A stretch of 43,351 bases of DNA from positions 1 to 43,351 of IMG/VR virus record IMGVR_UViG_3300025732_000081; one strand, 5' to 3'. How positions within the stretch are numbered: position 1 is the stretch's first letter; every line of letters begins with the position of its first letter. Under the pieces are notes generated by a model. That model saw only the letters and a list, made by a program, of their open reading frames with translations, did no database searches and had not been told where the DNA came from. Positions 1-32,179 of this stretch are shown here, piece by piece. Both the position numbers and the translations under genes were made by a program. Origin of the DNA: a virus.

Positions 1-38
1 ATCGCGTATAATAAAATCCCGAAAATCGAAGTTTTGGA

Positions 39-470
39 ATGGGCAATAAAAACTCCGGTAGACAGCCTGGCGACGGTCCAGATCAGCGACGGCAAATGTC
101 TCTTGTGTGCGGTACTGGGGTGCCTACGAAGCCTCCTGGGTTGCCAAAAGACGTGTCCGACGCTTGGGACTGGATCGAGCGGATGGTTGCTGGGGTGGTG
201 TTTGAGCAGGATACGCTGACGATTCAGATGGCTGCTGAGTGTTGGGTTGACCACTGTGATTACGTCATCTTGAAACGCGACAACAAGCATGACTTGGAGG
301 AGTTCGATAGGCTGGTTCGTGCTCAACTGGCGATTGACCGGCAGCTTAATGCGTTGTTTGACCGACTCGGACTGAACCCGAAGGCGCGGCAAACGTTGCG
401 AGTTCCGCGTGAGACTGCTGGCGAAAAAGACGATCTGGAGCAACTGATGGCAGAACGGGAGGGTGGATGA
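39..470 (+). CDS. terS: Terminase small subunit, P27-like
   Basis: Predicted DNA-recognition subunit of the packaging motor, which brings the large terminase to phage DNA. The 143-residue length fits. The N-terminus MGNKNSGRQPG and the C-terminal LGLNPKARQTLRVP resemble the ends of P27-family small terminases; the middle is helical with many charged residues. The start at 39 is chosen for that N-terminal motif although there is no clear Shine-Dalgarno site. The stop region overlaps the next gene by 4 bases, and an HNH nuclease and the large terminase follow, the usual order in cos-type HK97-like phages. Family call is by motif and context. Confidence 0.8.
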   Translation: MGNKNSGRQPGDGPDQRRQMSLVCGTGVPTKPPGLPKDVSDAWDWIERMVAGVVFEQDTLTIQMAAECWVDHCDYVILKRDNKHDLEEFDRLVRAQLAIDRQLNALFDRLGLNPKARQTLRVPRETAGEKDDLEQLMAEREGG

Positions 471-802
471 TCTACGGTCTAGTCGACGGTGTTGCTGTTC
501 CGGTTGTCGATGTCAATGGTTCGGTGATCTCTCGGCAGGACCGGTCGATTCGCGATGTGATTCAAGAGCGAGATGCGGTCGGTGCCAGATTTTTGGAGCG
601 GATCAGAAATGTTCGCGACACGTTTCCGTTTCCAAGTGTTGATGGTTCTGTACCCGGCGACATTCGATTCATCAATGGCAGATGGGTGCTTACAACGTCT
701 GCTCCCAGCGCTAAGTTGACGGTGACGATGGAACTCATGAGAAAACCCGATAATGGCAATCGCCCCAAAACACCGCCAGTTGAAGCGAACGGTCGAGAGT
801 AG
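467..802 (+). CDS. Hypothetical protein in packaging module
   Basis: A 111-residue protein of unknown function. Its start overlaps the end of the small terminase gene in an ATGA arrangement and its last 50 bases overlap the HNH nuclease gene, so it is probably translated as part of the packaging operon. The N-terminal half is beta-rich (MIYGLVDGVAVPVVDVNG); the middle has a charged helical stretch (SIRDVIQERDAVGARFLERI). No signal peptide or membrane segment is seen. The C-terminal tail is polar and proline-containing and could be partly an overlap artefact. I do not recognise a family. Confidence 0.6.
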   Translation: MIYGLVDGVAVPVVDVNGSVISRQDRSIRDVIQERDAVGARFLERIRNVRDTFPFPSVDGSVPGDIRFINGRWVLTTSAPSAKLTVTMELMRKPDNGNRPKTPPVEANGRE

Positions 803-1184
803 TTCCGACACGCGGCGAATCTCGGCGTCGGAGGCTGGCTACGATCACTACTGGACTTCGGTTGTCGCCCCTGCGATTCGAGAACGCGATGGGTGGATGT
901 GTCAAGAATGTTTGCGTGAGGGCGGTCTTGCTCAGGCGACGGCGGAAATGTTGAGTCGGCCAATCGTGACGTGCCAAGAATGTCGCGGTCGAAAACGGAG
1001 TTGTGGACTGTGCAGCGGAACTGGAAAACATGCTCGACAACCGCCAGTCGATCACATCAAACCTGGTCATGTTTGCACGCCTGATGAGTTTTACGACCCA
1101 GCGAACCTCGAAGTGCTATGCGAGGCTCACAACCAGAAGAAACGGCACAAGGACGAACAGCGGTACGGGAGTGCAAAGCGATGA
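753..1184 (+). CDS. HNH endonuclease with extra zinc-knuckle insertion
   Basis: A 143-residue HNH nuclease, of the kind that acts with terminase in DNA packaging of cos-type phages. The HNH frame is visible as WMCQEC (Cys50, Cys53), VDHIKPG (Asp100-His101), DPANLEVLC (Asn118, Cys123) and HNQKK (His126). Between the two halves lies an added CxxCxG-x3-CxxCxGxG segment (Cys74, Cys77, Cys84, Cys87) like a DnaJ zinc finger repeat. Usual phage HNH proteins lack this, and the large terminase here carries a similar piece. It overlaps the genes on both sides; the ATGA at 1181 couples it to the next. Confidence 0.85.
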   Translation: MAIAPKHRQLKRTVESSSDTRRISASEAGYDHYWTSVVAPAIRERDGWMCQECLREGGLAQATAEMLSRPIVTCQECRGRKRSCGLCSGTGKHARQPPVDHIKPGHVCTPDEFYDPANLEVLCEAHNQKKRHKDEQRYGSAKR

Positions 1185-1459
1185 GAACTGTCGTAATGCC
1201 GCTCGCTGGAGATGCCGGAAAGTTTCCGCTGTTCAATCCGGCTGGAGATTTGCAACCGCAACGGCCTGTCATTGTCAAATGGTTACATGAGTGCATTGAG
1301 GGCGAATATGACGAGCAATGTTGTCGTGAATACATTCGGGCCGCGTTGGATCTTCAGTTTGTGCAAAGCGTTCATGCTGTGATCGAAAAGTTGCGATTCG
1401 CGACTTGGATACGACCAAAAACATCCCATGCGGGATGCCGGGACCATCTTGGCGAATAG
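1181..1459 (+). CDS. Hypothetical protein
   Basis: A 92-residue protein of unknown function. The start is set at 1181 because ATGA overlaps the HNH stop codon; longer upstream starts would be buried in that gene. It contains a predicted helix with paired cysteines (DEQCCREYIRAALDL) and a hydrophobic C-terminal half. The last 13 codons fall inside the structured RNA element at 1422-1500, so its 3' end has a double role or the coding end is not under strong protein selection. No family recognised. Confidence 0.5.
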   Translation: MRTVVMPLAGDAGKFPLFNPAGDLQPQRPVIVKWLHECIEGEYDEQCCREYIRAALDLQFVQSVHAVIEKLRFATWIRPKTSHAGCRDHLGE

Positions 1460-1500
1460 CTCTCGTCCAGAACCCCGGCAAGCCCGCGAGGAGGCATTGA
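1422..1500 (+). ncRNA. Structured RNA element, copy A
   Basis: Leader immediately before the gene at 1501. A hairpin CATCCC/GGGATG with loop ATGC spans 1422-1437. It is followed by a closing stem CCGGG (1438-1442) with CCCGG (1474-1478). Inside is a conserved stem TGGCGA (1450-1455) with TCG-T-CCA (1463-1469), which has a bulged T and a seven-base loop. The core strings ATCTTGGCGA and TCGTCCAGA, their seven-base spacing and the CCCGG flank recur at 3926-3956, while the loops differ. The 3' end holds a GAGGAG Shine-Dalgarno. The role is unknown; a cis-acting translation or packaging signal is possible. Confidence 0.5.
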
Positions 1501-1785
1501 ATGATTCGAGTAACAATTGAGATTGTTGACGAGGATGGTGGACGGTCTGTCTCCACTCAGGAGGAACCGGACTCAGAGTCGTCTGGCACGCTTGCCACGA
1601 TGCTTGCGTATGCAATCAACGGGATTCGCCAGCATTTGTGTGGTCGCGTTGAAGATGTTGTCGATATTCTTGACGCGATGATGTCACAGTTGGATCATGA
1701 GTATGAGCCAATCATAGATTCGACACGCACGGCCGATGAAGCCGCAGAACAGCAGGAACAGACCGACTCAACATCGCTGGAGTAG
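1501..1785 (+). CDS. Hypothetical acidic protein
   Basis: A 94-residue acidic protein preceded by a strong GAGGAG site 9 bases before the ATG, unusual for this genome. It starts with a beta strand (MIRVTIEIVDEDG), has a helical middle (LATMLAYAINGI and VEDVVDILDAMMSQLDHE), and ends in a low-complexity Asp/Glu/Gln/Thr tail. It lies between the HNH gene and the large terminase, so a packaging or head accessory role is possible but unproven. It directly follows RNA element copy A. Confidence 0.65.
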   Translation: MIRVTIEIVDEDGGRSVSTQEEPDSESSGTLATMLAYAINGIRQHLCGRVEDVVDILDAMMSQLDHEYEPIIDSTRTADEAAEQQEQTDSTSLE

Positions 1786-1818
1786 CTTCCCAGAGATTGA
1801 CAATCCGCAATCACCCGC

Positions 1819-3696
1819 ATGGGAGGCCAAGGACGCCTCCAGATCAGCAACGACCACGCTAAAGACGTTCAGGAATACATCGACGGCGTTCTCAACGGCT
1901 CCATTGTCACGGGCCGGTTAGAACGCCTTGCGGTGCATCGTCACGTCCGCGACTTGGAGTTGGCGGGTGAGCGTGGTTTCTATTTCGACGAGAAGAAAGC
2001 ACTGGCGGCAATCGAGTTCAGTCGGTGCTGTAATCTGTTCGAGGGTGAGTGGGCTGGTAAGGCGATTCCATTACGCGCCGAACAGAAATTTATCGTCTGG
2101 TGCATTATCGGTTGGCGGCAATCTGTCGATGGTCTACGGCGATTTCGACAGGCCCAGATTGAGGTTGCGCGAAAGTGGGGAAAAAGCCATTTTGCCGCGT
2201 ATCTCGCCTGCCTGTTCCTATTCTTCGACGATCCGATTGAGCACGGGGCTCAATTGTACGTCGCCGCAACCAAGCAGGATCAGGCCAAACTGGTTTGGAA
2301 CGCTGCCTACAAGATGATCGAGCAGTCTCCCGCATTGCGGAAGCTGGCGAAGATCACTCCGTCGCGATTGCTGATCGAGTTGCCGAAATATGATTCGACG
2401 TTTCGGCCAATCGCTTCCGACTCCAAGACTGTCGACGGATTTAACCCGCATGTCGTCATCAAGGATGAGGAGCACGCATGGCGGGAAATGCACCGTGGTC
2501 TAGCCGACACGCTGCAATCGGGTTTCGGTGCTCGTTCGCAACCGATCACGATCACGATCACGACATACGGGGATGATGATTCCCTGATCTGGATCGAAAA
2601 CCACGATTACGCGGTGGACTGCCTCGAATCGGTGATCGACGGCAACATCATCGACGATACGTGGTTCGCCTTCATTTGTGCGTTGGACTACCGCGACGAA
2701 GATTCCCAGCCTGTTGAGTGCTATGGATGCAAAGGCGAATCGTGCCCGTGGTGCGCTGGTTCTGGCGTTCTGCCGATTGACGATCCATACGACGAAAAAA
2801 CGTGGCGGAAAGCTAACCCTGGCATCGGTTCTGGCAAAGGGTTCACCCCGAAGATCGAGCGAATGCGGGAAGCGGCAAACGTCGCGCGGCAACGACCGGA
2901 CAAGCAATCTGAGTTCTTTCAGAAGAATCTGAACATCCGCGTCGCCGCAAAAGGAAAAGTAATCAGCCCGGAAGTATGGGCGAAGTCTGCGGGCGAACTC
3001 TCGGATCTGACTGGCGTCAAAGGGTACGGCGCAATCGACCTCGGGCGAGTCAACGACTTCGCAGCAACCGGAATGGTGTTTCCGTTCAGTGAGGTTGACG
3101 ACGATGGCAATGCGTTCGTCAGGTACGAGTGCATGACAAAAGTCTGGACCGTCGAAGATCGCACGCCGGAAATGAGCAAGCCGTTCATCGAACAATGGAT
3201 TCGTGACGGACACCTGATTGAGCATCGCGGAAATTCCGTCGATTTCATGCTGGTGGAAGAATCAATCCTCGAATGGCATCGCGACTACATTATCGGCGAC
3301 TGGGCGTATGACAAGACGTTTGCACACCAGTTGGCACAGCGGTTGACGGCTGAAGGTCTGGAAATGTTCGTCTTCGGCCAGTCCCACAAGTTCTACACGG
3401 AACCGATCACGGAACTGCTCAAGCTGCTCGGCCAATTCCGCAAGGTGAATGGCGTCGATGTGCCACTGTTCAAGCACAACGGCAATCCGTGCGTTGCGTG
3501 GCAGGCTGGAAATCTGATCGTCGACCGCAACAACCGTGGCGAGTCGATGCCGGACAAATCGAACGGCAACAACAAGATCGACGTGATGGTGGTGATCCTG
3601 ATGGCTCTCAGTGAGTGCTTGTATCACCAGGATGAAAATGTGGACGGTTACTACCTGCACAACAGTCTCGCCATCGGTGGCGGGCCGGCCACATAG
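1819..3696 (+). CDS. terL: Terminase large subunit, HK97-like
   Basis: ATPase and nuclease of the DNA packaging motor, 625 residues. A Walker A variant ARKWGKS is at 117-123, YVAATKQDQAKLVW near 147-160 and Walker B VVIKDEE at 212-218. The RNase H-like nuclease domain begins near GAIDLGRVNDF and continues through GDWAYDKT and the KIDVMVVILMAL segment near the C-terminus. A four-cysteine knuckle (Cys301, Cys304, Cys309, Cys312; CYGCKGESCPWCAGSG) is inserted after the ATPase core and resembles the one in the nearby HNH nuclease. The start at 1819 lacks a good Shine-Dalgarno site. Confidence 0.95.
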   Translation: MGGQGRLQISNDHAKDVQEYIDGVLNGSIVTGRLERLAVHRHVRDLELAGERGFYFDEKKALAAIEFSRCCNLFEGEWAGKAIPLRAEQKFIVWCIIGWRQSVDGLRRFRQAQIEVARKWGKSHFAAYLACLFLFFDDPIEHGAQLYVAATKQDQAKLVWNAAYKMIEQSPALRKLAKITPSRLLIELPKYDSTFRPIASDSKTVDGFNPHVVIKDEEHAWREMHRGLADTLQSGFGARSQPITITITTYGDDDSLIWIENHDYAVDCLESVIDGNIIDDTWFAFICALDYRDEDSQPVECYGCKGESCPWCAGSGVLPIDDPYDEKTWRKANPGIGSGKGFTPKIERMREAANVARQRPDKQSEFFQKNLNIRVAAKGKVISPEVWAKSAGELSDLTGVKGYGAIDLGRVNDFAATGMVFPFSEVDDDGNAFVRYECMTKVWTVEDRTPEMSKPFIEQWIRDGHLIEHRGNSVDFMLVEESILEWHRDYIIGDWAYDKTFAHQLAQRLTAEGLEMFVFGQSHKFYTEPITELLKLLGQFRKVNGVDVPLFKHNGNPCVAWQAGNLIVDRNNRGESMPDKSNGNNKIDVMVVILMALSECLYHQDENVDGYYLHNSLAIGGGPAT

Positions 3697-3711
3697 CCAC
3701 AAAAAGGACAA

Positions 3712-3888
3712 ATGTCAACAATGAAGGATGTAATTCACTTCGGGATTTTGCTATCATCCGTCGCCAGTATCGGTGTCGGGTTGTGGCTGATTTCTCCCGC
3801 TGCGATGTTCATTGGGATTGGTTCGATACTGCTGGTTGGTGTAATCGTCGCGCGGTGTGGGTGGATGTTTATTCGTCGCGTTGAATAA
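3712..3888 (+). CDS. Small two-helix membrane protein
   Basis: A 58-residue protein with start ATG at 3712, AGGA site 5 bases upstream and stop at 3886-3888. Two hydrophobic segments are seen, about residues 9-24 (FGILLSSVASIGVGLW) and 28-46 (AAMFIGIGSILLVGVIVA), followed by a basic tail FIRRVE. It sits between terL and the portal leader. A holin-like or envelope role is possible from the topology only; no family is recognised. Confidence 0.6.
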   Translation: MSTMKDVIHFGILLSSVASIGVGLWLISPAAMFIGIGSILLVGVIVARCGWMFIRRVE

Positions 3889-3903
3889 TGAAAACAAACT
3901 CGT

Positions 3904-4018
3904 TCCCGTCACTGGGGGCCGGAAAATCTTGGCGAGTCATGATCGTCCAGACCCGGCCATCCCAGCGACAGGATTGACAATAAACGACGGAACCAGTGAC
4001 GGGGCATAGGACGCCCCA
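3904..4018 (+). promoter_or_regulatory. Structured leader of the portal gene (RNA element copy B)
   Basis: No protein is encoded between 3889 and 4018. An 11-base inverted repeat CCCGTCACTGG (3905-3915) and CCAGTGACGGG (3993-4003) can close a large domain. Inside are the stem GGCCGG (3917-3922)/CCGGCC (3953-3958) and the motif shared with copy A, TGGCGA (3930-3935)/TCG-T-CCA (3943-3949), again with a bulged T and seven-base loop. The 3' arm of the outer helix (4001-4003) is also needed for the hairpin next to the portal start, so the two folds exclude each other. This is the layout of a translational switch; the function is inference. Confidence 0.55.
4001..4017 (+). promoter_or_regulatory. 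Hairpin presenting the portal Shine-Dalgarno, CsrA-site-like
   Basis: GGGGC (4001-4005) pairs with GCCCC (4013-4017), leaving the loop ATAGGAC, which holds the AGGA ribosome site of the portal ATG at 4019. GGA in a hairpin loop is the known binding mode of CsrA/RsmA proteins, and this phage encodes a CsrA homologue at 35621. CsrA control of the portal gene is inferred. Confidence 0.5.
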
Positions 4019-5734
4019 ATGCTTGCAAGACTCGCATCCAACTTCATGCAGTCGCTGATGCCGAGTGCTCCGAGCATGGCGGCATCTTCAGCGGCGTACC
4101 CATCCACCGCGCCGTGGGGTGACTACTGGTATCAAACGATGGGCCTGCCAAATGCGCAGGGTGTCGTAGGTGGCGACGAGGCATATGAGTACGTTTCCGC
4201 GTGTTTTGCCGCAACTCGATTCTTGTGCGGCATGGGTTCGACTATCAATCTGAATCTGACGCAAAAGGTTCGCAGTTCCAGCGGTGCCATCACGTCTCAG
4301 GTTCTGTTCGAAGATCCTCGGCAAAATCTCATCAACGGTGAAGCGAACCGCGAACAAACTGCGATGGCTGCTCGGTCGATGCTGGTCGCGTGGCAGGTCA
4401 ATCGCGGAACAGGCATGGCGGAAATCGAGCGTGACGCATTCACAAAAGAACCACTGGCGTATCATCCAATTTACCCGACACGATGCCGTCCTTTTTGTTC
4501 GCAGTCGGATGGTTCGTTGTGGTGGCATGTGCGAAACAACGACGGAACGGACAGCGATATTCCTGATATCAACATGCTTCGCGTTCCGTACACGATCCTG
4601 AGCCGGAACGGACTCACGGGCGTTGGCGTGGCTGATCGATTATTTCAGACTATCGCCCTCGGTCAGAACCTGGACCGCACGGAAAACGATGCGTCAATGT
4701 CTGGCGTGCCTCGAATCGTCGTGGAAGTCCCTCGCGTAATGAACATGACGGAACAGGATGCGTTTCGTCGTCAATGGCGAGAACTTTACACTCAGGGCGG
4801 CGAACAAGTCGCGATGCTCGTCGGTGGTGCAACAGCAAAACCGCTGTCATGGTCGGCAACCGCATCAGACTTCACGAACCGCAAGGATCGTCACAAGCAA
4901 GACTGCGCGATTGCCTACGATGTTCCGCCACTACTGCTGAATCTGATTCTCGACCCGCAAGCGGACCCTGCCAAGTTGCTGATGGCGTTCCAGAAAACAT
5001 CCCCGAAATGGTTGGTCATGTGGATTCAGGAACTCAATCGCAAATTGCTCACGAAAGAGGAGCGACTGAAGGGATACGAATGGAAAATCGACTTCGCGTC
5101 CCTGCTCGAAGCTGATCCTGTTGGGCGGTCGCAATACTACTCTGGACTGTTTCCGCTGGCAGCACTCAGCCCGAACGAAATTCGCGAAGCTGAAGGCAAA
5201 AATCCGTACCCAGAAGGCGATAAGCGATTCGTCCAAGGGGCAATGCGGCCAATTGAGGAGCCATACAACGCGAACTCGCCGCAAAACCCGAAAATGGACC
5301 CGAAACAGGGCAAAGCAGACCCGCTCAAGGGGCCGAAAAAGCAGATGCTAGCACAGCAGGCGGCGTTGAAAACCGGCGCACGGGCGATGATGGAAGATTG
5401 CATCCGTCGAGTCACGCACAAGGAATCAGTCGCCGCATGTCGGGCAGCACGGAAGCCGAAGGAATGGTTTACCTGGGTGGAATCGTTCTACTCGGAGCAT
5501 GAATCACTCGTTGCCACCGAATTGCGACTACCACTCACAACCTGCCAAGCATTCGGGCTGAAAACGAACCCTGAAACGATGGCAGCGGAGCACGTCAAAC
5601 AGTCAAAAGACGCTCTAATTGCTGTAGCAGATGGCGACCCGGATAAGTTCGCCGAGCGCGTTGAGTCATTAACGGCGGGCTGGGAACAAAATCGAGCGTC
5701 GTCAGTCGTCCAATCAATCGCAGAACTCCAGTAA
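4019..5734 (+). CDS. Portal protein, HK97-like
   Basis: Forms the dodecameric ring at the head vertex through which DNA enters and leaves. The 571-residue length is somewhat longer than most HK97 portals because of a polar C-terminal extension after about residue 410 (NPKMDPKQGKADPLKGPKKQ and a helical region). Recognisable portal features include AYEYVSACFAATRFLCGM, the DPRQNLINGEANREQTAMA region, the GNA-like GNGL loop RNGLTGVGVADR, and the late segment LFPLAALSPNEIREAEGKNP that is typical of phage portals. It follows the structured leader and precedes the protease with a 13-base gap. Confidence 0.9.
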   Translation: MLARLASNFMQSLMPSAPSMAASSAAYPSTAPWGDYWYQTMGLPNAQGVVGGDEAYEYVSACFAATRFLCGMGSTINLNLTQKVRSSSGAITSQVLFEDPRQNLINGEANREQTAMAARSMLVAWQVNRGTGMAEIERDAFTKEPLAYHPIYPTRCRPFCSQSDGSLWWHVRNNDGTDSDIPDINMLRVPYTILSRNGLTGVGVADRLFQTIALGQNLDRTENDASMSGVPRIVVEVPRVMNMTEQDAFRRQWRELYTQGGEQVAMLVGGATAKPLSWSATASDFTNRKDRHKQDCAIAYDVPPLLLNLILDPQADPAKLLMAFQKTSPKWLVMWIQELNRKLLTKEERLKGYEWKIDFASLLEADPVGRSQYYSGLFPLAALSPNEIREAEGKNPYPEGDKRFVQGAMRPIEEPYNANSPQNPKMDPKQGKADPLKGPKKQMLAQQAALKTGARAMMEDCIRRVTHKESVAACRAARKPKEWFTWVESFYSEHESLVATELRLPLTTCQAFGLKTNPETMAAEHVKQSKDALIAVADGDPDKFAERVESLTAGWEQNRASSVVQSIAELQ

Positions 5735-5747
5735 CGGAACAAATACC

Positions 5748-7124
5748 ATGCTCAGTCAACTCGCCGATTTTCTGTCTCAGCCAGTTCTGATGGATGACGG
5801 ATACGCCAACATGCTGGCACACATCCTCAAAACGGGGAAAATGCCGGTTAATTCCACGCCGATCAAGAATGATGTACGGATGGCAGCGGAAAAACAGGCG
5901 TCCGCTGGTCGGTCATCATCCAGCAAAATCACTGTCGTCCTGCCGATCTGCGGAATGATTGACGAGCGTGATTCGTGGATCATGGAATACATGGGGGGCA
6001 CATCCCTCGAATCAATCCGGGCAGCGCTGGACCTATGCGCCAACGAACCGCGAGTCAGCGGCGTCGTGTTCGACGTGTACTCTGGCGGCGGGTCGGCATA
6101 CGGCGTGAAAGAGGCTGCGGACTACATCTACTCGATGCGTTCCCGACTGAACATGGTCGCGGTCTCACACTCGGTCATGGCGTCGGCAGCGTACTATCTC
6201 GGTTCTGCGGCACATCGCATTTACGCGACTCCAACCAGCGTGACAGGATCAATCGGCGTGGCGTGGGTCCATTCCGACTATTCGCAGGCTGAAAAGGAAA
6301 TGGGGATCACAACGACGATCTTCCGAATCCCGGAAACGAAAATGGAAGGGCATCCCGCAGAACCACTCACTGATGCGGCGAAACAGGCGATGATGGCTCG
6401 CTGCGGTCAGCTTTACGATATGTTCACGGGAGACGTTGCCAAGTATCGCGGATGCAAACAGCAGGACGTGAAGGACGATTATGGCAATGGTCGTGTGTTG
6501 TCGGCTGATGACGCCCTCAAGTGTGGAATGATCGACAAAATCGCCACGTTTGAGGATGTGATTCAGCAGATGTCGTCCGGCACGATTGGGCGGTCGTTGG
6601 CTCAGTCGAATCGAATGGAAGGCTCGGTTGATACGACTGTCCTGCAAAACCGCATGGCGATGATGGGAATGTCTTCCACGCGATTGCTGGACGGACCCGG
6701 CGCGACGATGCCAATCAACATGAAGCAGCCTGCATGGATGGCGGATTCAGTTCCAGACGCCCCTGAAACGAATCCAGGCGGTCTATTCGCCGATCTTCTC
6801 CATGCTGCAACGGCGGCACACATGCTCCACCTGCAAACGCGATCCTTCTCGCAGCATATGGCACTCGGTAGCCTGTACGAAGCACTGCCAGGCGCTGTCG
6901 ATGAACTGATCGAGTCGTATCAGGGCAAGTACGGCGTCATCCGCAATTACCCGTCTGGATTCACGACTCCAACCGGAACCCCGTTGGCATTTGTGCAGGC
7001 ACAGATTGCGAATCTGAAGGCGAAACGTGCTCAGATTGGCGATGACACGGAGCTTCAGAATTTGGTGGATGAAATCGCGAGTCTGCTGGATGGGACGGAG
7101 TACAAGTTGCGGTTTCTGGATTAA
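5748..7124 (+). CDS. S49-type capsid maturation protease fused to a C-terminal helical domain
   Basis: Predicted to cleave head proteins during capsid maturation. The SppA/S49 fold is seen in residues 60-285, with the oxyanion strand VFDVYSGGGSAYG, nucleophile Ser146 in HSVMASAAYYLG and general-base Lys198 in PETKME. After a linker, residues about 340-455 form a separate helical domain (AAHMLHLQTRSFSQHMALG, ELIESYQGKYG, LVDEIASLLDGTEYKLR). That domain resembles the DUF5856/Dps-like ferritin-fold proteins of other phages, usually encoded separately. No separate scaffold gene is seen, so the C-terminal part could serve in assembly. The last 164 bases overlap a minus-strand gene. Confidence 0.85.
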   Translation: MLSQLADFLSQPVLMDDGYANMLAHILKTGKMPVNSTPIKNDVRMAAEKQASAGRSSSSKITVVLPICGMIDERDSWIMEYMGGTSLESIRAALDLCANEPRVSGVVFDVYSGGGSAYGVKEAADYIYSMRSRLNMVAVSHSVMASAAYYLGSAAHRIYATPTSVTGSIGVAWVHSDYSQAEKEMGITTTIFRIPETKMEGHPAEPLTDAAKQAMMARCGQLYDMFTGDVAKYRGCKQQDVKDDYGNGRVLSADDALKCGMIDKIATFEDVIQQMSSGTIGRSLAQSNRMEGSVDTTVLQNRMAMMGMSSTRLLDGPGATMPINMKQPAWMADSVPDAPETNPGGLFADLLHAATAAHMLHLQTRSFSQHMALGSLYEALPGAVDELIESYQGKYGVIRNYPSGFTTPTGTPLAFVQAQIANLKAKRAQIGDDTELQNLVDEIASLLDGTEYKLRFLD

Positions 7125-7395
7125 TCGGCGAATGTGCGTTCAGAAGCTTAATAAACGATTCGTCACACTGTGGCGACACAAGCCGATCCAGCATAGACCG
7201 CATCCACGAGACTTCAGCAGACCGCCGCTCGTTCTCAGCAATGAGTTGGCGGTTTTGTTCGCGAAGTTTGTCGAGTTGTGGGTTCTCGGAATGTGGTAAA
7301 ATCGCCGTGACACGACATAGAAACGGGTCGAACCACGGTGCTTTCACTGGCTTGACAGGGCGCACGAACCACGACCGAACCCACATCCACATCAC
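6961..7395 (-). CDS. Hypothetical protein antisense to the protease 3' end
   Basis: A 144-residue reading frame, third in a minus-strand trio. Its ATG overlaps the stop of the preceding gene in a TGATG arrangement, which supports translation. Residues 1-35 are Trp-rich and basic; residues about 40-70 form a charged helix (LDKLREQNRQLIAENERR) that may be a coiled coil. The part after about residue 90 lies antisense to the protease gene and looks low in complexity, so only the first part may be under selection. No family recognised. Confidence 0.45.
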   Translation of the reverse strand: MMWMWVRSWFVRPVKPVKAPWFDPFLCRVTAILPHSENPQLDKLREQNRQLIAENERRSAEVSWMRSMLDRLVSPQCDESFIKLLNAHSPINPETATCTPSHPADSRFHPPNSEAPCHRQSEHVSPSDSQSVPAQMPTGFRLES

Positions 7396-7796
7396 GCCAC
7401 CTCGTAATTTATTTGAACCCGATATCTGCCAGTCTCCACGAATTCCGCTTCGATGGAATGCACTGTTCCGATTCCGTCAAATGCACCATTGCGCGGAATT
7501 GACAACTCTTGAAGAGCCGCGTCGCGAGAGGTTGCATCCACCATCACGATGCGAGACGCAGTGTTTCGCGGGTAATACGCAGTCAATCCGGGGTGGTATT
7601 GTCGCGGTTCTGCGCCATCCAGCCAGACGCGAACTGCGCGCCCGAACACCTCGGTGTGCGAAACCGTCGTTCCGTCCGGTAGCGGGTCGCTCGTGCATTT
7701 AATCAGTACGCCGAGCGATGACGGCGATGCGACTTGGCAAATCTGCATCGCCAGTTCAGGAGAAATATCGAACCAGCCTTTTTTCGTCGATTCCAT
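7392..7796 (-). CDS. Hypothetical protein in minus-strand head-module cassette
   Basis: A 134-residue protein coupled to its neighbours: TAATG overlap with the HTH gene upstream and TGATG with the gene downstream. It is beta-rich with a predicted globular fold (SLGVLIKCTSDPLPDGTTV, RIVMVDATSRDAALQEL, HSIEAEFVETGRYRVQINYEV), without membrane segments or signal peptide. It is encoded against the direction of the head genes, which is typical of a moron expressed from its own promoter. Function not recognised. Confidence 0.6.
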   Translation of the reverse strand: MESTKKGWFDISPELAMQICQVASPSSLGVLIKCTSDPLPDGTTVSHTEVFGRAVRVWLDGAEPRQYHPGLTAYYPRNTASRIVMVDATSRDAALQELSIPRNGAFDGIGTVHSIEAEFVETGRYRVQINYEVA

Positions 7797-7990
7797 TATT
7801 GATCTCCCTTTAGCTTCCGCCGAAACTGCGCAACCTGCTCATCCGTAAACACCATACGCCCCCCCTCACGCTCGCACTCCAGCCGCACGCGAACGCCGTT
7901 GACAAGCAATCCCTTTTTCACCCAGCGGCGGATTGTTGCGGGGTGAGGCTGTCCAGAGAACTGTTGTCGCAGCTTTTTAACGGTAAGCAT
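7796..7990 (-). CDS. Small helix-turn-helix DNA-binding protein
   Basis: A 64-residue protein of the MerR/excisionase-like helix-turn-helix type: MLTVKKLRQQFSG, then PATIRRWVKKGLLVNG as the recognition part, a short wing with RLECEREGGRMVFTDEQV, and a basic C-terminal helix. It is the first gene of a three-gene minus-strand cassette and has a short inverted repeat just upstream (8006-8018), so it probably regulates itself and the cassette. A role as an excisionase is less likely because the integrase is over 20 kb away. Confidence 0.7.
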   Translation of the reverse strand: MLTVKKLRQQFSGQPHPATIRRWVKKGLLVNGVRVRLECEREGGRMVFTDEQVAQFRRKLKGDQ

Positions 7991-8005
7991 CCATAACCTC
8001 GCATG

Positions 8006-8018
8006 TACACCTTGTGTA
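8006..8018. promoter_or_regulatory. Inverted repeat, possible operator of the HTH cassette
   Basis: TACAC (8006-8010), spacer CTT, GTGTA (8014-8018), located 16 bases upstream of the minus-strand start at 7990. Its position in the leader of a small DNA-binding gene suggests autoregulation. The rest of the 7991-8323 stretch has no convincing protein gene; it must hold promoters for both the minus cassette and the capsid gene, but no clear -35/-10 pair was found. Confidence 0.4.
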
Positions 8019-8290
8019 ACAAAACGCGCACTTCAGTGATTTGCAGTCTATATCGCCTCGACTTTCCATCAATCCCGCGTCTAGACTGATCACCACAAAC
8101 CCGCGAAACATCCGCCATAGATATTTTGCGGGCGACAATTCAATTAAGCCGCGTGAGAACCTGACTGCTGTTGCTGTCGATCCATGCGGGCGAAACTCTC
8201 TCGGCTGCTGTTGCACCTGCGAAGTTTCCAACCGTCCAGACCTGTAAACGTGTCTGCGGTGGAAATCGCGTCACAGTGTGTCTGCCGAAC

Positions 8291-8318
8291 TCGGTTCCAT
8301 CGCTCAACAAGGAACCGA
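8291..8318 (+). promoter_or_regulatory. Hairpin masking the capsid-gene Shine-Dalgarno
   Basis: TCGGTTCC (8291-8298) and GGAACCGA (8311-8318) form a perfect eight-base stem around a 12-base loop. The 3' arm contains the AAGGA ribosome site (8309-8313) for the capsid ATG at 8324, so the hairpin would lower translation unless opened by a ribosome or another factor. Confidence 0.5.
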
Positions 8319-8323
8319 ATCCC

Positions 8324-9748
8324 ATGCGAACTCGCGAACAACTCGCGGCTCGGCTCAGTGAACTGCAAACCATTATGCAGGGCATTGTTGCCGCCAATCC
8401 CGTCACTGTGCCGAAAGAAGAACAGGACAAGTTTGACGCTGCTTTGGCTGAAGTTCAGTCGATCAAGACCGAAGAAGCCGAACTGGTCGAAGCCGAAAAG
8501 AAGGCTGCTGCAAACAAGGCTGCTCTGGCGGCAATTCAGCCGATCACCACTCGCACCACGCAAAGTCAAGCGGTGTTTGCTGGCTCACATGCGGACACCG
8601 CCAACGTGACAATCAAGTCCGAAGTAATGACCGCACAGGAAATCGTCACGCGATTTGCGAACTGCCCGGAACGCAAGCCGCTCGATCTGACCGCCAAAAA
8701 CGGCGGATTCCGAACTCTTGGCGAACAGCTTCAGGCAATTGCACAGGCCGGGATCACCAATGGTCGCGGGGAAGATCCTCGCTTGCACTGGGGAAATACG
8801 ACTCCGCAGATGGCCGTGTCCGGTTCTGGTGCCAGCGTCCCCAGCGATGGTGGATTCCTGATCCAACGTGACGTGGCGAACGACTTTACAAGCCGACTGG
8901 TGAGCGATGGGGAAGTGTTGTCGCGAGTCGACACTACGGATATCGGCGCAAACGCGGATCGCCTGACCGTGAATATGGTCGACGAGACCAGTCGCGTTAC
9001 CGGCAGTCGTTGGGGTGGTGTCCAGACCTACTGGGGTGCTGAAGCAGACGCCGCAACCGCGAAGAAGCCGAAGTTTCGCCAAATGGAATTGACGCTGAAG
9101 GACATCATCGGCCTGGCGTACGTGACCGATCGCCTGTTGATGGATGCAAATGCGTTGCAGTCGATTTACACGAAGGCGTTCTCTGAAGAATTCACGTTCG
9201 TCATGGAAGACGGCGTGTTCAACGGAACAGGTGCCGGGCAGATGCTGGGCATCCTAAATTCGAACGCAAAGGTGTCGGTGACTCGCACCACATCGAGCCA
9301 TATCAAATACGAAGATGTGGTCAATATGTGGTCGCGACTGTACGCTCGCAGCCGCAAGGACGCGGTGTGGTTCATTAACCAAGATATTGAGCCAGACCTG
9401 TATGCAATGTCTCTTACCATCGGGACGGCAGGTGTTCCGGTTTACATGCCAGCAGGCGGGTTGAGCGGAAACCAGTACGCAACACTGTACGGTCGCCCTG
9501 TCATCGCGACGGAATACAACGCCAGCCTGGGTACGGTCGGCGACATCGTTCTGGCAGACCTTGGACAGTACGCAATGATCCGCAAGGGTGGATTGCAGTC
9601 TGATTCAAGCATCCATGTGCGATTCATTTACAACGAGTCGACCTTCCGCTGGATCTACCGCACGGACGGACAGCCCAAGTGGACAACGCCTGTCACTCCA
9701 GCCAAGGGCAGCAATACCAAGTCGCCGTTTATCGTTCTTGCAACGTAA
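8324..9748 (+). CDS. Major capsid protein, HK97 fold
   Basis: Main shell subunit, 474 residues from the start at 8324. This start is preferred over an in-frame one at 8171 because it has an AAGGA site and begins with the usual charged helix MRTREQLAARLSELQTIMQG. Residues 1-110 form the coiled-coil delta domain that acts as internal scaffold and is normally removed by the protease. The mature part follows from SGSGASVPSDGGFLIQRDV, with typical segments TYWGAEADAATAKKPKFRQ, LKDIIGLAYVTDRLLMDA and VFNGTGAGQMLGILNS, and ends with RWIYRTDGQPKWTTPVTPAKG. Confidence 0.95.
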   Translation: MRTREQLAARLSELQTIMQGIVAANPVTVPKEEQDKFDAALAEVQSIKTEEAELVEAEKKAAANKAALAAIQPITTRTTQSQAVFAGSHADTANVTIKSEVMTAQEIVTRFANCPERKPLDLTAKNGGFRTLGEQLQAIAQAGITNGRGEDPRLHWGNTTPQMAVSGSGASVPSDGGFLIQRDVANDFTSRLVSDGEVLSRVDTTDIGANADRLTVNMVDETSRVTGSRWGGVQTYWGAEADAATAKKPKFRQMELTLKDIIGLAYVTDRLLMDANALQSIYTKAFSEEFTFVMEDGVFNGTGAGQMLGILNSNAKVSVTRTTSSHIKYEDVVNMWSRLYARSRKDAVWFINQDIEPDLYAMSLTIGTAGVPVYMPAGGLSGNQYATLYGRPVIATEYNASLGTVGDIVLADLGQYAMIRKGGLQSDSSIHVRFIYNESTFRWIYRTDGQPKWTTPVTPAKGSNTKSPFIVLAT

Positions 9749-29358: not shown

Positions 29359-30528
29359 CTACTTTTCTGCGTCTGGTGTTGTCGGGAGTGTTGTGTCTTT
29401 GTCGCGATTCCACAATCGTTCGGCAAAACTCGTCGCTTCCACCAGTGCGTAGAATTTCATGGTTGTAGCGATGTCCTCGTGTCTCATCAACTGTTGAAGC
29501 TCGGCTGGCATCAATTTTTGCGACCAGCGAAGGCCAAATGTGCGGCGTAAATCGTGGGCGCTGCAGAATTTGCCGGTCGAATTGACTACAACGCCGGACG
29601 CTTCCCCTATTTGGCTGATCGTCTTGGAAACGTGATCGAGGCGAATCACGCCCTTGTGGCGGTGTTTGACCAAGGGGAATACCGGGCCGGTTCTCATGTG
29701 TTGTGGAGTCTTACACAACCATTTTCCAAAATCAGGAGTGAGTGGCAAAAGCCGATCTTGGCGACCCTTTTCGGACTCGGCAGCAATTCCCAGCAGCGGA
29801 TATTTCCCGGACAGGTCAATCCACAGATCCGCTTCGTGGGAGTCTTCAACTTTCCATGTGAGGTGCAGGGCTTCATCCAGTCGCAGGCCGGACAACCAAA
29901 GGCCGACCAACAGTCGACGCCATGATCTGGCGGCAACGCGACCAACGACTTGAGAAACAGCACGCAGCAGCGTCAGGAACTCCCTGTCGGTGATTGGGCG
30001 ACCTTTCGCCTTAGTTCCCTTCGACCGTGCGATCCTGGGCATCGCTGGAACTGTGGCAAGGTATCCACGTTCGACGCCCCATCTCAACGCCGTCGATAGT
30101 TTCGACAAATGCAGTTGAATCGTTGTTTCCGAGCGATTCCACGGATCTCCGCGCAAAGTTTGAGCGTATTTCGATAAAGCGGCGGTAGTGATGCTGGACA
30201 GGTGGTCTGGCGAAATGATTTTGGAAATCATCGAGAACGCGGAAAGGACGCGGCGTTGGCTCGACACGTCCAGGCTCAACAGATGTTCCTCGGTGTAGAC
30301 CGTGACAAAATCTTCCCATCTGATCGAACCGTCGCCAGTTGGTAGTTTTGCGTTCAGCCGATCCTCAAATGCTTTTGCAGACCGTTCAGCCTCCCGGCGA
30401 GTTTTGCACTTGGACGACTGCGTTTTTCGCTTGCCGGTCGTCGGATCGACCCATTGAAAATAGAGGAATCTACGAGGATTCGAAGCTGTCGAAAGGTCAA
30501 CAACGTACACGCTGATTCGCTCGCTCAT
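29359..30528 (-). CDS. int: Tyrosine recombinase (phage integrase)
   Basis: Catalyses integration and, with a directionality factor, excision. The 389-residue protein has an N-terminal arm-binding part (about 1-65), a SAM-like core-binding domain (about 65-165) and the catalytic domain. Active-site residues are visible: Arg216 in SGLRLDEAL, His325 and Arg328 in SAHDLRRTFG, His350 in MRHEDIATTMKFY and nucleophile Tyr360. The gene reads toward the tRNA-like core 13 bases after its stop. Its start overlaps the stop of the AT-hook gene (ATGA), so both are co-translated. Confidence 0.95.
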   Translation of the reverse strand: MSERISVYVVDLSTASNPRRFLYFQWVDPTTGKRKTQSSKCKTRREAERSAKAFEDRLNAKLPTGDGSIRWEDFVTVYTEEHLLSLDVSSQRRVLSAFSMISKIISPDHLSSITTAALSKYAQTLRGDPWNRSETTIQLHLSKLSTALRWGVERGYLATVPAMPRIARSKGTKAKGRPITDREFLTLLRAVSQVVGRVAARSWRRLLVGLWLSGLRLDEALHLTWKVEDSHEADLWIDLSGKYPLLGIAAESEKGRQDRLLPLTPDFGKWLCKTPQHMRTGPVFPLVKHRHKGVIRLDHVSKTISQIGEASGVVVNSTGKFCSAHDLRRTFGLRWSQKLMPAELQQLMRHEDIATTMKFYALVEATSFAERLWNRDKDTTLPTTPDAEK

Positions 30529-31370: not shown

Positions 31371-31426
31371 GTATCGCTCACGGATGAGGAAAGTCAAATC
31401 ACGCAACGCACAGCAAGGTGATATCT

Positions 31427-32179
31427 GTGGCAAAAATAATTGACATCGAACTAGACAAAATCCGCATTGACGGCGGAACGCAGCCACGAGCGAAGATCGA
31501 CATGGAAGTCGTCAACGACTATTCAACGTCGTTCGAACTTGGTGCGAACTTCCCGCCAATCGACGTGTTCTTCGACGGCAAGGAATACTGGCTCGCCGAT
31601 GGGTTTCACAGATATCACGCAGCACGCGATGCCCATGTTCCAGAACTCCCTGCAACGATCCATAACGGGACGGTGCGTGACGCAATCCTGTTCTCGCTCG
31701 GATGCAATGATCGTCACGGACTTCGCAGGACGAACGAGGATAAGCGTCATTCCGTGATGACGATGCTCAACGATCCTGAGTGGTCACAGTGGTCCGACAG
31801 GTCAATCGCCGAAAAGTGCGGAGTTGGAAATCAACTGGTTGGTCATGTCAGGCAAACTCTGTGTGATTCACACGGAGTTTCGGAACGTAAGTTCACGACA
31901 TCCACAGGCAAGACGGCAACTATCAAGGTTGATCCACCGAAGCCGAAGCTTAAGACGGATGCGGCAGTCGCCACGGAAACATCCAAGCCCACCAAGCATG
32001 AGCCAGAGCACGAACCAGAGCAAGAAGTCGAACAGACATCGCCACCAAAGACCTGGGAGGTGTTCGACGACATCACTCGGTTGCGTCAGTTGATCGCAAA
32101 ACTTCATGACAACTGGGTCACCGAATCGGATCGCAAAATTATTGCTCAATTCTTCCGTCAATGTGCAAACGAGGTTTGA
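31427..32179 (+). CDS. ParB-like protein
   Basis: A 250-residue protein. GTG at 31427 is chosen because AAGGTG lies 6 bases upstream; an in-frame GTG exists at 31418. Residues 1-75 form a ParB/Srx-like N-terminal domain (LDKIRIDGGTQPRAKIDM, VFFDGKEYWLADGFHRYHAA), followed by a conserved RHGLRRTNEDKRHSVMTML region and an HTH (WSDRSIAEKCGVGNQLVGHV). The C-terminal third has a charged Glu/Pro/Lys linker and a final helix. It precedes the GHKL ATPase gene with a 3-base gap, so the two probably work together. ParB-fold proteins can be CTPases, nucleases or transcription regulators. Confidence 0.75.
   Translation: MAKIIDIELDKIRIDGGTQPRAKIDMEVVNDYSTSFELGANFPPIDVFFDGKEYWLADGFHRYHAARDAHVPELPATIHNGTVRDAILFSLGCNDRHGLRRTNEDKRHSVMTMLNDPEWSQWSDRSIAEKCGVGNQLVGHVRQTLCDSHGVSERKFTTSTGKTATIKVDPPKPKLKTDAAVATETSKPTKHEPEHEPEQEVEQTSPPKTWEVFDDITRLRQLIAKLHDNWVTESDRKIIAQFFRQCANEV

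Follow-up and report, generated by a model that had tools for sequence, protein, structure and literature searches.

The virus record IMGVR_UViG_3300025732_000081 of IMG/VR (positions 1 to 43,351, all 43,351 nucleotides [nt] being called the window in what follows) contains two copies of a long hairpin, one before a small open reading frame (ORF) and one before the portal gene. The hairpin is real and strongly conserved, and it is probably functional. The reading favored here, to which we give a probability of about one half, is that it is a cis-acting element of the sense-strand mRNA that controls the expression of the portal protein and, in the case of copy 1, of the small ORF. The features of the locus, in their order along the window, are as follows.

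39-470: TerS
467-802: ORF
753-1184: HNH
1181-1459: possible ORF, its stop codon TAG inside the loop of copy 1
1424-1500, + strand: copy 1 hairpin and tail (core pattern; fold z-score −3.05; covariance model E = 2.7e-6)
1490-1494, + strand: GGAGG, ribosome-binding site of ORF 1501-1785, directly after copy 1 P1
1501-1785, + strand: 94-amino-acid ORF downstream of copy 1
1819-3696, + strand: large terminase subunit (TerL), between the copies (phrog_9; Pfam TerL_ATPase and TerL_nuclease)
3721-3888: small membrane-protein-like ORF
3901-4021, + strand: conserved portal leader, comprising copy 2, tail, ribosome-binding-site hairpin, and start codon (alignments with L012 and L205, see below)
4019-5734, + strand: portal protein gene (Pfam Phage_portal, 4.9e-38; phrog_12)

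An S49 protease gene follows. An initial annotation of this DNA had placed the two copies around the terminase genes, which holds only loosely: copy 1 lies between HNH and TerL, and copy 2 between the membrane-protein-like ORF and the portal gene. The 5′ half of copy 1 codes for the final residues of ORF 1181-1459; copy 2 is entirely intergenic. There is no poly-T terminator at either copy, and the hairpins do not qualify as intrinsic terminators.

A Hairpin Present Twice in the Window

The core of the element, ATCTTGGCGA-N7-TCGTCCAGA (26 nt), has two exact occurrences on the + strand of the window, at 1446-1471 and 3926-3951, which confirms the exact core strings and the seven-base spacing first described. 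Within the window, no third core match is found with up to three mismatches allowed (0.01 expected in shuffled sequence), nor a third copy by a covariance-model search without filters. Folding makes each core the tip of its own long irregular hairpin, with folding-energy z-scores of −3.05 (copy 1) and −3.30 (copy 2) and shuffled sequences folding equally well in 2/200 and 0/200 cases, respectively. The CCGG-type enclosing stems and the similar tails of the initial annotation are also present in both copies; the stems are GCCGGG/CCCGGC in copy 1 and GGCCGG/CCGGCC in copy 2, and the tail is GCGA..AGG..ATTGA. The outer helices P1 and P0 extend the element to 1424-1492 and 3904-3973. An asymmetric internal loop separates the lower helix (P1 and P2, 11 base pairs) from the upper helix (P3 and P4). 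The helices are placed as follows.

1430-1434, + strand: copy 1 P1, 5′ strand GCGGG, pairing with 1483-1487 (CCCGC)
1437-1442, + strand: copy 1 P2, 5′ strand GCCGGG, pairing with 1474-1479
1446-1471, + strand: copy 1 apical core, with P3 UCU/AGA (1447-1449/1469-1471), a U-C mismatch, P4 GGCGA/UCGUC (1451-1455/1463-1467), and the loop at 1456-1462
3904-3977, + strand: copy 2 hairpin (folds, consensus fold)
3904-3906/3971-3973 (UCC/GGA) and 3908-3910/3967-3969 (GUC/GAC), + strand: copy 2 P0 (folds)
3912-3916/3961-3965 (CUGGG/CCCAG), + strand: copy 2 P1 (folds)
3917-3922/3953-3958 (GGCCGG/CCGGCC), + strand: copy 2 P2 (folds)
3927-3929/3949-3951 (UCU/AGA), + strand: copy 2 P3, followed by a U-C mismatch (folds)
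3931-3935/3943-3947 (GGCGA/UCGUC), + strand: copy 2 P4, with a 7-nt loop at 3936-3942 (folds)

In outline, this anatomy is similar to that of RNase III sites, with an irregular stem, an asymmetric internal loop, and repeated copies that each immediately precede a gene. The element might then be a processing site of RNase III (or of another endonuclease) in a polycistronic late mRNA, where cleavage would give the upstream and downstream genes separate mRNA half-lives. This explanation is credible but unlikely, as the conserved tail, the inverted-repeat arms, the ribosome-binding-site hairpin, and the apex shared by the window copies (see following) exceed what RNase III needs.

Homologs and Distribution

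Copy 2 is found in two other viral contigs. In L012 (IMGVR_UViG_3300007363_000185; TerL 92% identical) it stands at the matching position, and in L205 (IMGVR_UViG_3300005664_001453) it is kept before the portal gene, with an extra small ORF between the membrane-protein-like ORF and the leader. Further homologs, for which the initial annotation had asked, thus exist, and their changes in the apical helix preserve pairing. Copy 1 is absent from L012, where no counterpart of ORF 1501-1785 is seen between HNH and TerL.

No family of Rfam 15 reaches its gathering score in the window, and a relaxed E-value gives only chance-level matches (e.g., radC, E = 4.2), in agreement with the first impression that no named class fits. 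The exact core is found in eight stretches of viral contigs. One of these belongs to a contig that matches the window exactly for 9.7 kb, and six were rejected, since most have other spacers and the sequence around them does not form the structure. A looser CCGG-core pattern finds 111 stretches, among which only L140 (the L012 contig) and L205 are true by the covariance model. Three other candidates were discarded: L101 (23 bits) reads as a coding stretch on the opposite strand; L322 fits the stem pattern, but is antisense to an open 180-amino-acid ORF and by itself does not form the motif; and the other matches of the tail pattern CAGCGACAGGATTGAC retain just the bait tail. The idea that the ATTGA tail resembles a CRISPR repeat was also abandoned, there being no repeat array and no supporting match.

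Among genome contigs (85,000 genomes), the exact core is present in 90 stretches, none of which scores with the covariance model, and TerL patterns for close relatives find no relative. The covariance model gives four weak matches in 392 Planctomycetota genomes, approximately the number expected by chance, with pairs broken or the apical core missing. Nothing above chance is found in about 80 distant TerL relatives (29-36%) and in distant portal relatives, and 14.7 kb of the relative contains no further copies.

Sequence similarity reveals three additional aspects of this group of phages. The contig IMGVR_UViG_3300007363_000186 (L011/L009) is 100% identical to positions 1-9693 of the window (9.7 kb), and it comes from the same metagenome as L012 (82% identical), so that two variants of the window phage are present in a single sample. 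The nucleotide similarity between the window and L012 stops about 230 nt into the portal gene (window position ~4245), and the protein identity there drops to about 42%; a recombination breakpoint just 3′ of the leader is likely. Finally, the additional ORF that precedes the leader in L205 (7281-7592, − strand) has GVAFPIVDVDGATISRRD and resembles the start of window ORF 467-802 (GVAVPVVDVNGSVISRQD). Judging from this resemblance, a gene like ORF 467-802 appears to occupy two places of the late region in related phages.

Conservation of the Leader and of Its Pairing

The alignment of the window with L012 and L205 shows a sharply bounded conserved block, from CGTTCCCGTCACTGG to the portal AUG. 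This leader has about 121 nt, its 3′ end being the AUG itself. Between the window and L012 it is 88.6% identical overall and 96.7% (89/92) identical outside the apex. The values for the comparison regions are 64% at the third codon positions of TerL, 74% for the ORF that precedes the leader, 61% for the opening 200 nt of the portal gene, and 54% for the 60 nt upstream. Single bases are inserted at the apex, within the tail, and ahead of the start codon. Such 1-nt changes of length inside the leader argue against its being coding. The initial claim that the element does not code for protein is thereby supported for the leader, but has to be qualified for copy 1, whose 5′ half overlaps the last codons of the possible ORF 1181-1459.

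A leader peptide in the TTG frame of the portal leader was rejected, as a 1-nt insertion in L012 breaks the frame. A nine-codon frame, ATA AAC GAC GGA ACC AGT GAC GGG GCA TAG (3982-4008), stays open in L012 and L205 despite a 1-nt indel upstream; its AUA start is implausible and the frame is probably meaningless.

The apical part UCUUGGCGA..UCGUCCAGA is common to both window copies, and the apex of L012 and L205 differs and is still paired. In P4, GGCGA/UCGUC of the window copies is replaced by GGUG/CACC in L012 and L205, with C-G becoming U-A and G-U becoming G-C and pairing kept. Accordingly, two changes in this helix of the consensus fold preserve pairing, the first two-sided and the second one-sided. 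The loop GAATAGCT is identical in copy 1 and L205, while the surrounding helix differs; hence, the helix has changed around a kept loop. Between copy 1 and copy 2, two P1 pairs are changed on both sides. The differences in P2 were left out of the covariation count because they can be explained as a one-base shift of GCCGG/CCGGC. These homologs also bear on the bulged T that the initial annotation regarded as conserved, which it is not: L012 and L205 read UUGGUGA..ACCACCCUAGA, with an extra base on the 3′ side, and the energy model prefers UCU/AGA followed by a U-C mismatch and GGCGA/UCGUC (with one G-U pair) to the bulge.

A covariance model built from the three copy-2 orthologs alone recovers copy 1 with E = 2.7e-6, at 31.4 bits against 19.5 bits for sequence only. 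Copy 1 is a diverged paralog of copy 2. The structured RNA that the initial annotation suggested is thus supported by homologs with pair-preserving changes in the apical helix. With covariation drawn from four sequences, the structural evidence is good but thin.

These data also bear on whether there is any function at all. The copies could result from chance or from recent duplication, and the leader could have been recently exchanged by recombination; the sequences are few and the element is restricted to one small phage group. However, a recent exchange would bring an identical apex, and it is the apex that differs, next to stems with 97% identity. The chance expectation for two cores is about 0.01. 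An absence of function is therefore very improbable.

The Region Preceding the Portal Start Codon

Downstream of the copy 2 hairpin, the leader contains a 15-nt A-rich stretch, the arm CCAGTGACGGG, and a small hairpin. Three features are distinguished.

3905-3915, + strand: 5′ arm of an inverted repeat, CCCGTCACTGG (11 nt, flanking copy 2)
3993-4003, + strand: 3′ arm, CCAGTGACGGG, the reverse complement of CCCGTCACTGG, sharing three G with the small hairpin
4001-4017, + strand: small hairpin GGGGC-AUAGGAC-GCCCC, with the portal ribosome-binding site AGGA in its loop

The small hairpin is conserved, and its predicted pairing is 0.86-0.99 in the three phages. The 11-nt inverted repeat is perfect in the window; L012 and L205 retain it with a single C to T substitution, which still allows a G-U pair. 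Pairing of the two arms is incompatible with P0/P1 and with the small hairpin, and forcing it carries a penalty of 1.5 kcal/mol for the window and 4.7 kcal/mol for L012, with a predicted share of the ensemble of at most 10%. A switch operated by the arms is possible, though the modeled energies do not favor one. At copy 1, the GGAGG at 1490-1494 can partly pair with UCC at 1424-1426, with predicted unpaired probabilities of 0.17-0.8.

The inverted repeat raises the question of whether the element acts as DNA, i.e., as a packaging or recombination signal, as an operator, or as the remnant of a small mobile element having the 11-nt repeat as its ends. The arms CCCGTCACTGG and CCAGTGACGGG do bracket copy 2, the minus strand folds well, the leader is missing in a sister phage, L326, between the same two genes, and copy 1 is missing in L012. 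However, the inverted repeat surrounds only copy 2 and its orthologs and is lacking at copy 1, which is not what terminal inverted repeats would give. There are no more copies in the window, in the 14.7 kb of relative, or in the ~80 related loci. An operator would keep sequence over pairing, yet the apex half-sites change. As for the packaging signal that the initial annotation offered as an alternative, the cos sites of such phages are expected near TerS and HNH, and copy 2 stays at the portal start codon, between TerL and the portal gene and away from TerS (39-470) and HNH (753-1184), which lie upstream. Packaging is thus unlikely from position, and a DNA element of any of these kinds is quite improbable.

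The apex suggests another possibility, an RNA for processive antitermination in the late operon, either acting on RNA polymerase as put does or serving as a nut-like site for a phage factor. The window has two elements of ~70 nt, as has HK022, and an apex identical within the phage and different in its relatives is the pattern of lambdoid boxB. Yet the window element is one stacked hairpin plus a separate small hairpin instead of the two stem-loops of put, and its copies would be 2.5 kb apart in one operon. No sigma-70-like promoter is detected near either copy, a consensus that may not be the host's. Moreover, conservation extends exactly to the portal start codon, a limit for which antitermination has no need. 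Antitermination is therefore rather improbable; it and RNase III processing are the serious rivals of the leader reading.

Other Features of the Phage

The S49-family head maturation protease (5748-7124) appears to have its C-terminus fused to a DUF5856/phrog_858 domain, annotated as a starvation-inducible regulator. The window phage also has a ParB-like protein (31418-32179) and a tyrosine integrase (29359-30528), the latter without a match in the phage collection at E 1e-5.

Discussion

A cis-acting mRNA leader is the explanation that fits best, because the stems and the tail are nearly frozen while the apex changes as a pair-preserving unit, because the 3′ limit of the conserved block is the start codon, and because the element stays with the portal gene and not with the gene upstream. 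The conserved structure adjoins both the ribosome-binding site and the start codon of the portal gene. From the G-U pairs and the fixed relation to the downstream start codons, we infer that the + strand is the sense strand. In the proposed mechanism, which supposes transcription of the + strand, translational control, and a binding partner, copy 2 would be the 5′ leader of the portal gene within the late mRNA, with the P0-P4 hairpin and, after it, a small hairpin presenting the portal ribosome-binding site. The portal protein is needed in few copies per particle, and the leader would tune the amount of it made from the late transcript. Copy 1 would be placed likewise against the ribosome-binding site of ORF 1501-1785. 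The apex would most likely be the contact point of an RNA-binding partner serving both copies. That the window copies have their own apex, and the relatives a different one, hints at a phage-specific partner, as for boxB.

Several observations weigh against the control of portal expression by such a leader. The portal ribosome-binding site is already exposed in the predicted ensemble, and energy alone predicts no switch. The minus strand folds about equally well. The support comes from four sequences, of which three are orthologs, with few two-sided changes. L326, whose portal protein is 44% identical and whose gene order is the same, has no leader, and its small ORF overlaps the portal ORF; the element is therefore lineage-specific, confined to one small lineage. 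The binding partner stays hypothetical because the common descent of copies 1 and 2 would give the same picture. A bolder version of the leader hypothesis, in which one phage-encoded protein binds the phage-specific apex of two paralogous hairpins and so sets the dosage of the portal protein and of the gene downstream of copy 1, the apex of the relatives having co-evolved, would define a new phage RNA family; it is doubtful.

Relative to the capsid protein, the portal protein has to be produced in small, fixed amounts, and there is little understanding of how tailed phages achieve such dosage from a single long late transcript. A conserved leader immediately upstream of the portal gene, whose hairpin lends itself to mutation and restoration, would open dosage control to testing, and the catalogue would gain an RNA family from uncultured phages.

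Among known systems, the RNase III hairpins of T7 stand before genes. The window element is like them in being an irregular hairpin of ~60 nt with an internal loop, in several copies per phage and directly upstream of genes; it differs in also conserving an apex, a tail, and a ribosome-binding-site hairpin. The likeness is one of anatomy, and no sequence relation is claimed. The boxB hairpin of lambdoid phages is small and has a loop of 5 nt, its apex being the same within a phage and different in relatives. The two window hairpins resemble boxB/nut in their common apex and in the other apex of the relatives, but they stand before late structural genes, and no N-like protein is identified. The R1.1 RNA of T7 is a hairpin that a single RNase III cut divides into pieces of 47 and 13 nt (PMC4858673). 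Phage HK022 has two put RNAs of ~70 nt and similar sequence, which act in cis, have two stem-loops, and lie downstream of early promoters (PMC9378689). They share with the window element the presence of two ~70-nt structured RNAs of related sequence in one phage, whereas the latter is one stacked hairpin, P0-P4, in all four copies, placed before late genes and ending at a start codon. The translational operators and leader hairpins of phage and ribosomal-protein mRNAs differ from the window leader, which has no Rfam match or known regulator, and resemble it in kind, not in family: in both, the ribosome-binding site that a structured leader adjoins belongs to a gene with a product needed in limited amounts. 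The element is thus new as a sequence family, narrow in distribution, and ordinary in kind, a phage mRNA leader or hairpin.

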